A stretch of DNA of 38,050 nt from positions 1-38,050 of IMG/VR virus record IMGVR_UViG_3300031977_000306; one strand, 5' to 3'. The position numbers and the translations under genes were made by a program. Shown here one piece after another: positions 32,251 to 37,730 of this stretch; the stretch's first letter is position 1, and each line of letters begins with the position of its first letter. Source of the DNA: a virus. Below the pieces are notes generated by a model. The model saw nothing but the letters and a program-made list of their open reading frames with translations. It did not search any database and had not been told where the DNA came from.

Positions 32251-32439
32251 TTAGTTAGCTTTAGCTTTAGGCATTTCTCCATGAGCATAATGAACTTGTC
32301 CACCTTTCATAAGCTCACGTCTAGCAGCTTTGTTACCATCAGTAATTCCATCGACTTTCTCGACTTCACCACCCATTGAGTAACCCATCATTTTTTTCTT
32401 GTAGCCACCGCCCATCATTTTTTTTCTTCCGTATTTCAT
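32251..32439 (-). CDS. Small Gly/Lys/Met-rich protein after the capsid gene
   Basis: A 62-residue basic protein with KKMMGGGYKKKMMGYSMGG at the start and a soluble C-terminus. It has an AAGGAAG ribosome site that lies just after the capsid terminator, so it is read only when transcription passes that hairpin. Short proteins rich in Gly, Lys and Met occur here in marine phages; function unknown. Confidence 0.6.
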   Translation of the reverse strand: MKYGRKKMMGGGYKKKMMGYSMGGEVEKVDGITDGNKAARRELMKGGQVHYAHGEMPKAKAN

Positions 32440-33496: not shown

Positions 33497-34354
33497 TTAT
33501 TTGCGAATACGTCCTTCGACCATAGCCTGACTAATTTCTTTTTCAAACTTGTCAAACTCGTCCATTGACATTCTTGCAATCTCCTTTTCAGTCCAAATCT
33601 TATCCTGTTTAGGTTCAACCGCAGTTGTTTTGGTTGAGACCATATCAGCAGCAGATTTATTAGACTGCTTAGAATTTGACTTCTTCGGTGCAACGTCCAT
33701 ACCAATATCACGTTTAAATAAATCTAAAGCTCTTGCAGCTAGGTCAGCATCATCAGCATTTGAGTATATCCAATCTTGAATAGACTTAGGCTGTTCTTTT
33801 GCCCAGCTATGGAAGTCGTCACTGTTTCTGATATCTTCAAAATCAGGATGTCTATCCATCAATCGCTTTTCAGCATCCTTACGAATTAACTCTTTCTCAC
33901 GTTCTTGTAGTCTTTCTAGTTTCTCTTTCAGTTCCTTAGATTTCTCTTCGGCTTGAAGGTGAGAAACAGTTTCTACAACTTCGTAAACATCAGGATACTC
34001 TCGTCTAAATTGTTCAAGTTCTTCAGCAGACTTAGGAGCTTTGTAGGTTTGTCTATTTTTAGTAGCCTCATCTAGTAGCTCTTGTTCTCTAGCTTTAAAC
34101 TCGTTTAGCTTAGAGTCATAATGCTTTTTCAAGTCATCGTAACGTTTCTTGTAGTCAGGTCTTTTATAAGGTTCATCCCTAGAAGTTTCCTGTTCTACAG
34201 GTTCTTCATCGGTTGCTTCTTTCTTTGATTTAGCTTTAGGCTTTTCAAAAAACATTCCGTCTGCTGTGTCAAAGTTTTCTTCAACGTCTGTATGCCATGA
34301 TTTATTTTGGTTGTAAGGATTGGCATGTTCCTCTTGTTGTACTTCAGTAGTCAT
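33497..34354 (-). CDS. Capsid scaffolding protein
   Basis: A 285-residue, highly charged, mostly helical protein directly upstream of the coat gene. Residues about 65-165 form a long Lys/Glu coiled coil (KKRYDDLKKHYDSKLNEF; ELKEKLERLQEREKEL), and the C-terminus is a short helix with a basic end (SMDEFDKFEKEISQAMVEGR then IRK), the usual coat-binding tail of scaffolds. It would guide head assembly and be lost from the mature virion. Its ATG overlaps the stop of the broken small frame upstream, and its TAGGAG site lies within that frame. Confidence 0.82.
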   Translation of the reverse strand: MTTEVQQEEHANPYNQNKSWHTDVEENFDTADGMFFEKPKAKSKKEATDEEPVEQETSRDEPYKRPDYKKRYDDLKKHYDSKLNEFKAREQELLDEATKNRQTYKAPKSAEELEQFRREYPDVYEVVETVSHLQAEEKSKELKEKLERLQEREKELIRKDAEKRLMDRHPDFEDIRNSDDFHSWAKEQPKSIQDWIYSNADDADLAARALDLFKRDIGMDVAPKKSNSKQSNKSAADMVSTKTTAVEPKQDKIWTEKEIARMSMDEFDKFEKEISQAMVEGRIRK

Positions 34355-34507
34355 ATTCTTTTTCTCCTACTCAGGGCTTCGTTTAACAAGGTAGCTGCGT
34401 GTGCACTTGCAGGGCTTGTCTTGTAAAGGTAGCCTTTCGGTTTATAATATGATAAGGTGCCTATGACGTCTTGGGTAGCCTTATCGCCTTTTAGTAACCA
34501 GCTCCAT
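34351..34507 (-). pseudogene. Small gene apparently broken by one base in an A-run (51 residues if repaired)
   Basis: Between the 335-residue gene and the scaffold the minus strand has an open frame reading KATQDVIGTLSYYKPKGYLY and then KTSPASAHAATLLNEALSRR, whose TGA overlaps the scaffold ATG (ATGA). In this frame there is no usable start. However, an ATG at 34507 reads MELVTK and would enter exactly this frame if the run of four A (34489-34492) were three. The repaired gene would be 51 residues, overlapping the upstream stop by 17 bases. This is either a sequencing or assembly slip, a true mutation, or +1 programmed frameshifting. Function unknown. Confidence 0.45.
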
Positions 34508-35498
34508 GAACCGGTGGTCTTTTAAATGCCATCTCTTCGTATAGAGGATTAGTTTCCTCTCCACGTTGAGGGTCAAGCATTGAACCAGCTACACCAACCG
34601 TTTCGGATTGTGGTCCTCTTTCAACTCTAATAACTTGTTCAGTCATTGGAGCTGCTGTAGGTTGGTATGCTTCTTCATCTTGTTGCATTAAACCACCAGT
34701 CTGTACTGGCTGTCTTTCGTCTGCTCTAGCTTCAGCATCTTTCATCATCGCCATTAAGTTATCGGCTCCGATTTCTTCTACAGCTTTAGCAGTAAAGACA
34801 AATTCTCCATCAGATAACCTTGCGGGTATGCTGTCAGAGACTCCGGTTCCGGGTCCTTCAACAGGTCCAGAACCAGCAAATTCTGATGCGACTTCTATAA
34901 CTTTATCAAATAGCATAGAGAGTTCTTCATCTTGTTCAAGTTTTGACATAAGCATATCTTCTTCTTCTTCACTTAATGCTTCGTCAATTATAAAATCTAA
35001 ATAGTTATCTTCCATGACATCATCAGGTTCCATTTCTGATTCACCATGAGTAGCACCGGGCATAACAGTTCCATCCGGCATTGTGTGTGTTGGACCCATA
35101 AGCTCTGACATTTGTTCGTCTACGTCACCGCCTTCTTGCCAAGTGTTTCTTTCGTCCATTGATGCATCCATTGACCCACCTTTATACATTCCGGGTCTCT
35201 CTTCAGCTAATTCATTTTTAATTAAAATACGTTGTCTATCAAGGTCATTAATTTCTTGGCTAATTGATTCCACTTGTCCAACATCTTTATTTTTTTGAGC
35301 ATCTTGTAAATCTAGCATTTTAGATTGAATAGCAACTTCCAAACCATTTAATACAACTCTAGGATTTGAATTTAAAGATTCAACAACGGATTCTCCATCT
35401 CTGTATCCCATTCTTTTTACAACCTCTGGAACTTCTTTCGCTAAAGCTTCCAGTCCTTCGTTTGGATATTTTTTACTATCGTCTTGTAACATGCTCAT
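34491..35498 (-). CDS. Capsid-region protein of unknown function
   Basis: A 335-residue acidic protein between portal and scaffold. An N-terminal helical part (about 1-95) includes a coiled coil (VESISQEINDLDRQRILIKN). The middle is acidic and Met-rich (ALSEEEEDMLMSKLEQDEEL). About residues 212-260 hold GPGTGVSDSIPARLSDGEF then VFTAKAVEEIGADNLM, a recognisable module in marine podovirus genomes whose function is unknown. No protease catalytic set is clear. Its ATG overlaps the stop of the 77-residue protein (TAATG) and AAGGAAGAAGA precedes it. Position suggests a head-assembly or head-completion role. Confidence 0.7.
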   Translation of the reverse strand: MSMLQDDSKKYPNEGLEALAKEVPEVVKRMGYRDGESVVESLNSNPRVVLNGLEVAIQSKMLDLQDAQKNKDVGQVESISQEINDLDRQRILIKNELAEERPGMYKGGSMDASMDERNTWQEGGDVDEQMSELMGPTHTMPDGTVMPGATHGESEMEPDDVMEDNYLDFIIDEALSEEEEDMLMSKLEQDEELSMLFDKVIEVASEFAGSGPVEGPGTGVSDSIPARLSDGEFVFTAKAVEEIGADNLMAMMKDAEARADERQPVQTGGLMQQDEEAYQPTAAPMTEQVIRVERGPQSETVGVAGSMLDPQRGEETNPLYEEMAFKRPPVHGAGY

Positions 35499-35731
35499 TA
35501 TTCTTCTTCCTTTCTAGTCAGTGCCTCTTTAACTTTACCCGGCAACTGCTCTAGGCGTACCAGAGAATTCACTCTCCCCTGCAACCGGAACATTTCCGAT
35601 TCCGATGTTGCCACCGCCAGTGCCTGTAGGTCCAAGGTCTTGAGGCTGTGCAGGTACTCCTGCAAGGCTTCCCATAGCTCCTTGTTGCCCACCAAGAGAT
35701 TCAGGCGTTTCGCCAGTTGTTTGTCCAACAT
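35498..35731 (-). CDS. 77-residue protein overprinted on the portal C-terminus
   Basis: A helical, charged protein (MLDKQLAKRLNLLVGNKELW, then a central helix, and a tail ending ALTRKEEE) encoded in another frame over the last 197 bases of the portal gene. Reasons to treat it as real: a TAGGA site about eight bases before ATG 35731, a globular Leu/Glu/Lys-rich composition unlike a random shadow, and a TAATG junction with the next gene that would couple their translation. Short proteins of this style follow portal genes in T7-like phages. Role unknown. Confidence 0.7.
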   Translation of the reverse strand: MLDKQLAKRLNLLVGNKELWEALQEYLHSLKTLDLQALAVATSESEMFRLQGRVNSLVRLEQLPGKVKEALTRKEEE

Positions 35732-37730
35732 TTTGCATTCCTATAATTTGTGCCATCATTGCAGCTTCTTCAGGGTCGTTGAGTATTTCATCAGGGTCTA
35801 AGTCTAAGCTGTAGGCAAGTTCACTAACGAGTTTAGAAATCTTAACAAACGGTGCAATAGCTGGACTTTGTGCAGTTTGTAAGAACATCGTAAGTCTTTG
35901 TGACCTAACTTCTTTCTGCATCAAGCTATTCGTACCTGTAGCTTTGACTTCTAAATCGCCTTTAACATCTAAGTCACCTTCAAAGAACTGCATGTTCCAT
36001 TGAAAGAATGACTCTCCCATTGGTCTCAGTAAAAAGTCGTCAAGGTTTTTAACAACTGTTTTAATGTTAAGACTAGATGCTCCAAGTAACATGGACATAC
36101 CAGAAGCAGTCCTTGTCATACTTTGAACACCAGTCTGACCATGTGAATAGGATGGTATGCCGGTTTGTTCGTCTGCAAGTTGTCTAAACTTGTCAAACAT
36201 CATCATATTCTCAGGTGCAGTGTTTGGAAACTTTAACCCGTGTATAGCTTGTCCGGGCATCCCAGCTTGTCTTCTAAAGATTTTGCCGGGATAGATTTCC
36301 ATAGACTGTCCACCCACTAATGCTGATTCGTCTACATCAAATACTAGCGAACCAGCCATAGCTAAATTATCTACAGCCATTCTTGCATGACCGTTCATAA
36401 TCTGCTGTGAATCATCCATGTTCTCAGCTACTCCAATACCGAAGAAGTTATATGGATTCTTCTCGTATGGGAAAGCGTGGTAAGGTATTCTGTAAGGAGT
36501 AAATGGATTCACTACTGCTCTAAGAAGTTTATTACCACATATCCATGCATTGATTTGTACTTCATCTAAATCATCAATGTCTTCGTCAAGGTCAATACCA
36601 ACTTCTCTAGCGTACTCAGCGTCCATGATACCCCAGTACTCAATAACTTCAAAGTTGCTTTCGTATTCATCAACTCTTGCATCATCACGTAGTTGAGATT
36701 CAAAATCTTTCTCTTCGTAGTTTGGACCTTCGGTCAAACATTCACGAATAGCATCTTCGTCAAAGTAAGGCATATTTCTTAATTGCCTTAATTGGCTTTT
36801 ATTCATCTTATGACGATGAATTACAAATTCGCATTCTTCAATGCTAGTAGCTGATGGGTCTGGATAAAAATCCCAACAGCTTACAAATTCTATTCTTGGT
36901 ACTCTAACTTCTAAAGGCTTATACGTTCTATTACCTTCTTCGTCTGTATCCCACTTGTTTAACTTTTTATTAAAATTAAAAGGACCTTTGACAATCCCTG
37001 TACCAAGTAGTGATGCTTCTAATAAAGCATTACGTATTTCTGATGACCCGTGTGACTCTTCTATTTGGTCATGGATAAGTTTTTCCATTCTTCTTGCTGC
37101 ACGTTGAGCTGGAGATAGTTCTAATTTTTGTGGGTCAGGACTGAATCCTTCTTGAAGCATTCCAGCCTGTTCAGCTTTTTGTTCTAATGAATCTTCAAAC
37201 AATCCTCTGTTAAAGGTAGCACCGGGTCTTAGTACTCTTCCGTCACCCTCGTAACCAACATCGTAAGGATTGTCAATTCTGTTTCCAATGTCATCGGGTA
37301 TTTCCATACCGCCCATTGGAGTTTCAAGTCCTAATTGTCCTTGGTCTAAATGAGCTTGTCCAAACTCACCTTCAGGTATTCTTGTTTCTTGAATACCAAT
37401 TGGAAACTTACCTGTTCCAAAGATAACATCAACTAATTGTCCAAAGGCAGCAAGTACTTTAGTCTTAGTTATCTTTACAAAGATTCTAGATTTTTCTGAA
37501 TCTCTAAACTTAATTGATTTGTTGTATAGCCCTCTGTAGTTTTCGTAAGCTCTAAGCCAACGTCTTTCGTCAGAGTTTCTTGCATCTTCAGCTTGGTAAA
37601 ATCTTGACTGGATGATACCTACAAGATTTTCTTTTTGACCAAACTCTAGTGCAAGGTTTTTACCCGCTTCACCTTCTACTTCTTCGTAAAGGTTGTCAGC
37701 GTTTAAAAATGTGTTCTCGTTATCTGCCAT
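35535..37730 (-). CDS. Portal (head-tail connector) protein
   Basis: A 731-residue portal that would form the twelve-subunit DNA entry channel. It lies directly after the large terminase and ahead of scaffold and coat. Features include the N-terminal SDERRWLRAYENYRGLYN helical stretch followed by SRIFVKITKTKVLAAFGQL, a YNFFGIGVAENMDDSQQ region near the middle, and MTRTASGMSMLLGAS around residue 540, phrases characteristic of marine podovirus portals. The C-terminal 65 residues are Gly/Pro/Gln-rich and disordered-looking, and coincide with the overprinted frame. The ATG has AGGAACGA upstream and is six bases from the terminase stop. Confidence 0.92.
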   Translation of the reverse strand: MADNENTFLNADNLYEEVEGEAGKNLALEFGQKENLVGIIQSRFYQAEDARNSDERRWLRAYENYRGLYNKSIKFRDSEKSRIFVKITKTKVLAAFGQLVDVIFGTGKFPIGIQETRIPEGEFGQAHLDQGQLGLETPMGGMEIPDDIGNRIDNPYDVGYEGDGRVLRPGATFNRGLFEDSLEQKAEQAGMLQEGFSPDPQKLELSPAQRAARRMEKLIHDQIEESHGSSEIRNALLEASLLGTGIVKGPFNFNKKLNKWDTDEEGNRTYKPLEVRVPRIEFVSCWDFYPDPSATSIEECEFVIHRHKMNKSQLRQLRNMPYFDEDAIRECLTEGPNYEEKDFESQLRDDARVDEYESNFEVIEYWGIMDAEYAREVGIDLDEDIDDLDEVQINAWICGNKLLRAVVNPFTPYRIPYHAFPYEKNPYNFFGIGVAENMDDSQQIMNGHARMAVDNLAMAGSLVFDVDESALVGGQSMEIYPGKIFRRQAGMPGQAIHGLKFPNTAPENMMMFDKFRQLADEQTGIPSYSHGQTGVQSMTRTASGMSMLLGASSLNIKTVVKNLDDFLLRPMGESFFQWNMQFFEGDLDVKGDLEVKATGTNSLMQKEVRSQRLTMFLQTAQSPAIAPFVKISKLVSELAYSLDLDPDEILNDPEEAAMMAQIIGMQNVGQTTGETPESLGGQQGAMGSLAGVPAQPQDLGPTGTGGGNIGIGNVPVAGESEFSGTPRAVAG

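Follow-up and report, generated by a model that had tools for sequence, protein, structure and literature searches.

Where genes of phages or other viruses are overprinted on the same strand, with one gene in the +1 frame of the other, a single stretch of DNA is read in two frames, one of them old and the other added. For the separation of such overlapping pairs, a published model of overlap loss relies on the movement of start and stop codons; duplication is nowhere mentioned in it (0 occurrences; PMC4161906). The locus described here likewise consists of one stretch of DNA with two frames, but it differs from other overprinted pairs in that the added frame holds a motif that is conserved in an essential virion protein and in that relatives carry both parts separately.

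The locus lies in a stretch of viral DNA of 38,050 nucleotides (IMG/VR record IMGVR_UViG_3300031977_000306), which was analysed as a whole and is called the window below. Its features are the following:

35535..37730, minus strand: portal protein, 731 aa (SU10_portal PF23899, phrog_332/phrog_1216)
35498..35731, minus strand: ORF77, a 77-aa all-helical protein in the +1 frame of the portal gene, probably an old gene of the head module
35535..35731, minus strand: putative dual-coding overlap, 197 nt
35634..35731, minus strand: portal linker, the first half of the overlap (about residues 667-699), nearly neutral in the portal frame and constrained in ORF77
35559..35633, minus strand: conserved portal motif GPTGTGGGNIGIGNVPVAGESEFSG, residues 700-724, the second part of the overlap
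35739..35742, minus strand: AGGA, the probable Shine-Dalgarno sequence of ORF77, within portal codons
35496..35500, minus strand: TAATG, in which the ORF77 stop overlaps the start codon of the gene that follows; not conserved among relatives
34491..35498, minus strand: next gene, 335 aa, hypothetical

The portal belongs to the SU10 type by its Pfam and PHROG portal matches. A sequence-only reading of this DNA had proposed that the portal tail and a 77-residue helical protein have 65 codons in common, and the two genes indeed share 197 nt (65.7 codons) on the same strand. AGGA stands 7 nt ahead of the ORF77 ATG, and the bases that specify the portal motif (35559..35633) also encode an ORF77 helix with an R.QG signature. 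As for the neighbouring genes, a DGEFVFTAKAVEEIG stretch (residues about 205-260) of the 335-aa product of 34491-35498 matches many tape-measure PHROGs, although the gene is far too short for a tape measure. A charged protein of 285 aa (33497-34354; PHROG 13678, function unknown) is encoded directly before the capsid gene and, judged by its place, is likely a scaffold, and an ORF for 62 residues rich in Met, Gly and Lys (32251-32439), for which no family match was found, lies behind the capsid gene.

To compare the locus with its relatives, we assembled 490 sequences from viral contigs, which were scanned with different portals in six runs, and from regions of annotated phages. Each scan contributed the best 80 loci per query, and counts of arrangements therein do not equal frequencies in nature. 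With this scope, a homologue of ORF77 was located directly at the 3′ end of the portal gene, on the same strand, in 473 of the 475 loci with a complete portal end. Removal of near-identical loci left 408, of which, again among the best 80 per query, 286 have a long overlap of 160-218 nt (O loci) and 120 are side by side or share no more than about 75 nt (S loci). The overlap length is bimodal (160-218 nt versus -30 to about 75 nt), with almost no loci between the two modes. No broken ORF77 was found in the 286 distinct O loci (best 80 per query); stops in the 77-residue frame next to an intact portal frame were the pattern that the sequence-only reading had singled out as evidence against a second gene. 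A search of the loci for recent duplicates found none with two copies of ORF77.

Several lines of evidence address whether ORF77 is a gene. The frame is open in all 78 close loci. When the portal gene is recoded synonymously, the ORF77 frame stays open in 0.075% of trials in the window, in 6% in HTVC103P and in 60% in HTVC033P, so that this test alone is weak in the latter two; when ORF77 is recoded synonymously, the portal frame stays open in at most 0.05% of trials in the window, HTVC103P and HTVC033P alike. We also ran the substitution analysis by frame that had been suggested from the sequence alone, using near pairs within three O clades and sorting substitutions by their effect in each frame. 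This simplified version of published overlap-aware counting, with codon-bootstrap intervals and pairs that are not phylogenetically independent, yielded ORF77 dN/dS values in the overlap of 0.43 (0.32-0.59), 0.33 (0.23-0.47) and 0.33 (0.26-0.42), compared with 0.71, 0.86 and 1.23 for the control, the same non-coding frame in the portal core. The ribosome site read from the window is retained in relatives as well: the glycine codon preceding the ORF77 start is GGA or GGG in 72 of 79 loci versus 38% of core glycines, and the start codon is ATG in all these loci. ORF77 is probably translated from its own ribosome site within the portal gene. The TAATG link to the next gene, also pointed out by the sequence-only reading, is present in the window, but many relatives lack it (40/79 loci have it in the window's group and 1/74 in the HTVC103P group), and it was therefore rejected as a conserved trait.

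The isolates that carry the overlap have no ORF77 annotation, which would fit a frame that is open by chance in DNA where the portal alone is coding. This explanation is countered by purifying selection, the conserved Shine-Dalgarno sequence, stand-alone homologues and a confident fold, and we give it next to no credence; at the sequence level, the dN/dS values together with the recoding and Shine-Dalgarno results reject it. As judged from its pattern of substitution, ORF77 is a real gene under purifying selection at the protein level, and dual coding of ORF77 and the portal is well supported.

We then considered what the portal frame contributes. Averaged over the overlap, its dN/dS is 0.99, 1.09 and 0.77, versus 0.05-0.10 in the portal core. 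These averages comprise two different parts. In the linker, changes that alter the portal and are silent in ORF77 accumulate at rates of 0.318/0.112/0.206 in the three clades, about equal to the synonymous rate of the core (0.362/0.096/0.225). In the motif, the same class of changes accumulates at 0.086/0.060/0.087, 2-4 times below the linker. This difference suggests that the linker is a free run-on, whereas the motif, a stretch of 25 residues with the consensus PTGxGGGxIGxGxVPxxGExxFSG, is dual-coding and constrained in both frames. Substitution rates thus indicate protein-level selection in both frames, which for the portal frame is confined to the motif; the subgroup intervals of dN/dS for the motif alone are wide. 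In the structure model of the portal, which is moderate overall (mean pLDDT 61), residues 654-731 have a pLDDT below 50, and ORF77 is modelled with a pLDDT of 95. The asymmetry that had been noted between a disordered tail and a compact second frame fits these models, but the description of the tail as disorder is incomplete, as the tail also holds the doubly constrained motif.

A mean portal-frame dN/dS of about 1 in the overlap and a tail predicted to be disordered could also mean that ORF77 is real and the entire portal tail a tolerated run-on, with the motif being a shadow cast by conserved ORF77 codons. Under closer inspection this is very unlikely, given that ORF77-silent sites evolve 2-4 times more slowly in the motif than in the linker, that synonymous recoding of ORF77 destroys the motif, and that other phages have the motif outside ORF77; the slow ORF77-silent sites and the recoding nulls largely refute the shadow at the sequence level. 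We instead favor a scenario in which ORF77 would be an old gene of the head-assembly module through which the portal frame later ran on (in the -1 frame relative to ORF77). The first half of the resulting tail would be a tolerated by-product, and the 25-residue Gly/Pro motif at its end would be functional portal sequence, its bases being selected in both frames.

The distribution of ORF77 homologues bears on the order of these events. A profile of O-type ORF77 matches the gene behind the portal in CRP-9, CRP-13, RHph_N3_19, Slicky01, phiM6, MQM1 and MW202701, with weak matches in CHOED and CRP-235, and homologues with no or a short portal overlap are found in Rhizobium, Roseobacter, Vibrio, Aeromonas and Pseudoalteromonas phages. 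Profile comparison of O and S members gives a probability of 97-98.5%; between the window group and the HMO group it gives 98% at full length and 96% when restricted to the N-terminal part, a region outside the motif, and this establishes homology across the two arrangements. The small genes of CRP-9, CRP-13, phiM6, RHph_N3_19, MQM1 and Slicky01 share with ORF77 the family, the location between the portal and the head genes that follow, and the R.QG signature, and, as read by eye, stand-alone small genes have the same W-to-QG spacing; they differ in that they start at or near the portal stop, whereas ORF77 starts within the portal gene and is unannotated in isolates. More distantly, Y3, StenR_269, MW202426 and Rollin have portals without such a tail, followed at the equivalent place by a small gene with an [R/Q]G[K/R] signature that is weakly linked to ORF77 by profile. 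The homologues behind portals with no or short overlap favor extension of the tail over an older gene, the first of the two origins considered by the sequence-only reading, and not the reverse; ORF77 is therefore probably older than the portal tail. A simple extension, however, is not the whole history, since related phages carry the motif and then ORF77 in series. The portals of Vibrio/Aeromonas/Pseudoalteromonas-type phages (L091, L092, L094, L411, L412) end in a shorter tail, P.PG..GFTGN.EGAGN, and the overlap is absent or very short; this tail resembles the Gly/Pro motif and may be homologous to it.

In S phages, including the HMO-2011/CRP type, the motif appears as DPTGxGGGxIGxGxVPxPGExxFSG upstream of the ORF77 start. 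Measured against synonymous recodings of ORF77, the fit between O-type and S-type motifs reaches z scores of 9.4, 5.7 and 10.0, and 244 of 244 O sequences exceed all 200 nulls. Tails of HTVC033P-type phages are identical to HMO-type tails at 20 of 33 residues on average (27 in the best case, L456), as compared with 20.0 for the S-type CRP-13, 17.7 for phiM6 and 4.5 +/- 1.9 for shuffles. The register is constant, as in 227 of 244 O loci the motif precedes the QG codons by 52 nt, and tail similarity drops with tree distance (20, 16 and 11.5 of 33). In six S loci (L400, L378, L399, L381, L371, L365), the +1 frame of the motif is open and continuous with ORF77, so that an N-terminally extended product starting at an upstream ATG is possible.

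Motif and ORF77 both seem to be inherited. This is difficult to explain without an ancestral overlap that a second copy later resolved. Separate stretches cannot merge by descent, while one dual-coding stretch can split, so that, most simply, the superposed state would be the ancestor of the HMO-type state. Specifically, it would already have existed before the window/HTVC103P, HTVC033P and HMO-2011 lineages parted, and in the HMO-2011/CRP/phiM6 lineage a second copy, arising by tandem duplication or gained by recombination, would have resolved the overlap, the upstream copy retaining the portal motif and the downstream copy ORF77. The published model shifts a boundary (PMC4161906); here both readings of the shared bases are required, and loss of the overlap would require a second copy. 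Relics of the lost frame were sought in both copies of S phages and none was found; such loss is expected after so long a time, but it also leaves the proposed duplication without a direct scar.

The trees bear on this sequence of events to different degrees. FastTree analysis of the portal core places HTVC033P-type O phages as sister to HMO-type S phages, but under a mixture model the portal tree does not reject a single O clade (p 0.40) and leaves the base open. The TerL tree alone rejects a placement of all O phages on one side (p 0.0006), and TerL and portal combined, with the TerL of the window taken from a 98% relative (L001), reject a single O clade (p 0.0035) and join HTVC033P-type to HMO-type phages with support of 100/100. 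A published five-gene tree also puts HTVC033P inside the HMO-2011-type group (PMC9038755). Rooting on the far outgroups Y3, Rollin, StenR_269 and MW202426 involved long branches and left the basal order open. The TerL trees thus support an ancestral overlap, and the portal tree alone does not decide. Its weaker signal may stem from recombination at the portal end among SAR11 phages, which could mislead and is our main doubt. The Vibrio/Aeromonas-type phages, placed outside and having the short P.PG..GFTGN tail without overlap, leave the state of the deepest node unsettled.

Alternatively, the side-by-side state could be ancestral: in SAR11 phages, a deletion would have taken away the old portal tail and put the portal frame onto ORF77, selection would have rebuilt the lost motif in the -1 frame, and recombination would have spread the block among SAR11 phages. 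In line with this, the phages of Vibrio, Aeromonas and Pseudoalteromonas that fall outside in FastTree are side by side, the portal tree allows one overlapping clade (p 0.40), the overlapping isolates all infect Pelagibacter, and the ORF77 of non-overlapping phages has, at the matching position, a certain latent potential for the motif (z 0.2-2.8). Yet it requires that 25-33 residues were rebuilt to 20-27/33 identity within the limits of another protein, and this in several clades at one register; moreover, the drop of similarity with tree distance is what descent predicts, and the TerL tree groups the HMO-type phages with one of the two overlapping clades only. We consider a side-by-side ancestor improbable. 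A later second copy that separated the two genes accounts best for the comparative data, without being proved. That one lineage took apart an ancestral dual-coding segment by a second copy, with one frame retained in each, has in our estimate an even chance, and we lean modestly toward the account as a whole, comprising a real and old ORF77, a dual-coding motif, an ancestral overlap and a later second copy.

Regarding the role of ORF77, its model consists of four helices (pLDDT 95, pTM 0.78), bearing out the helical protein expected from the sequence. Searches of Pfam and PHROG gave no family match above the curated cut-off, and Foldseek found nothing significant in the PDB, its hits being generic helical hairpins, type III secretion co-chaperones among them; nothing reliable thus came from Pfam, PHROG or solved structures, and matches to the designed proteins 8ga9 and 8eox were disregarded. 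Among viral models, the best hits are small proteins (70-81 aa) whose names are uninformative; those of 70-76 aa have TM 0.76-0.92 and E 0.004-0.03. In a distant phage, the gene order is portal, small gene, scaffold and capsid. The gene of T4 gp67, a small protein, similarly stands directly behind the portal gene and ahead of the scaffold and capsid genes. T4 gp67 is a prohead core protein (PMC9958956); its likeness to ORF77 is one of gene position alone, and we claim no relation in sequence. From its place behind the portal gene and ahead of the capsid gene, we tentatively suggest that ORF77 may be a head-assembly accessory protein, conceivably a small helical accessory of the prohead or the portal.

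In sum, the observation made from the sequence alone is confirmed and its interpretation partly supported. ORF77 is unannotated in four isolates with the overlap, HTVC103P, HTVC104P, HTVC115P and HTVC033P. Its homologue is also absent from the annotation of CRP-1, CRP-345 and Aeromonas phage 1233 and shortened in that of HMO-2011 (L084, L086, L496, L494). A survey of HMO-2011-type phages, in which genes were called with Prodigal and GeneMark, makes no mention of overlaps (PMC9038755). Prodigal permits same-strand overlaps of at most 60 bp (PMC2848648), a limit that we suggest as the reason why ORF77 was missed. A conserved gene overlooked in abundant marine phages is thereby added. Moreover, the superposed and side-by-side states form a natural series on how gene overlaps begin, how constraint is divided between two frames at the level of single codons, and how overlaps are undone, and, if the proposed history is true, this locus would be a natural case of a gene overlap undone by duplication.
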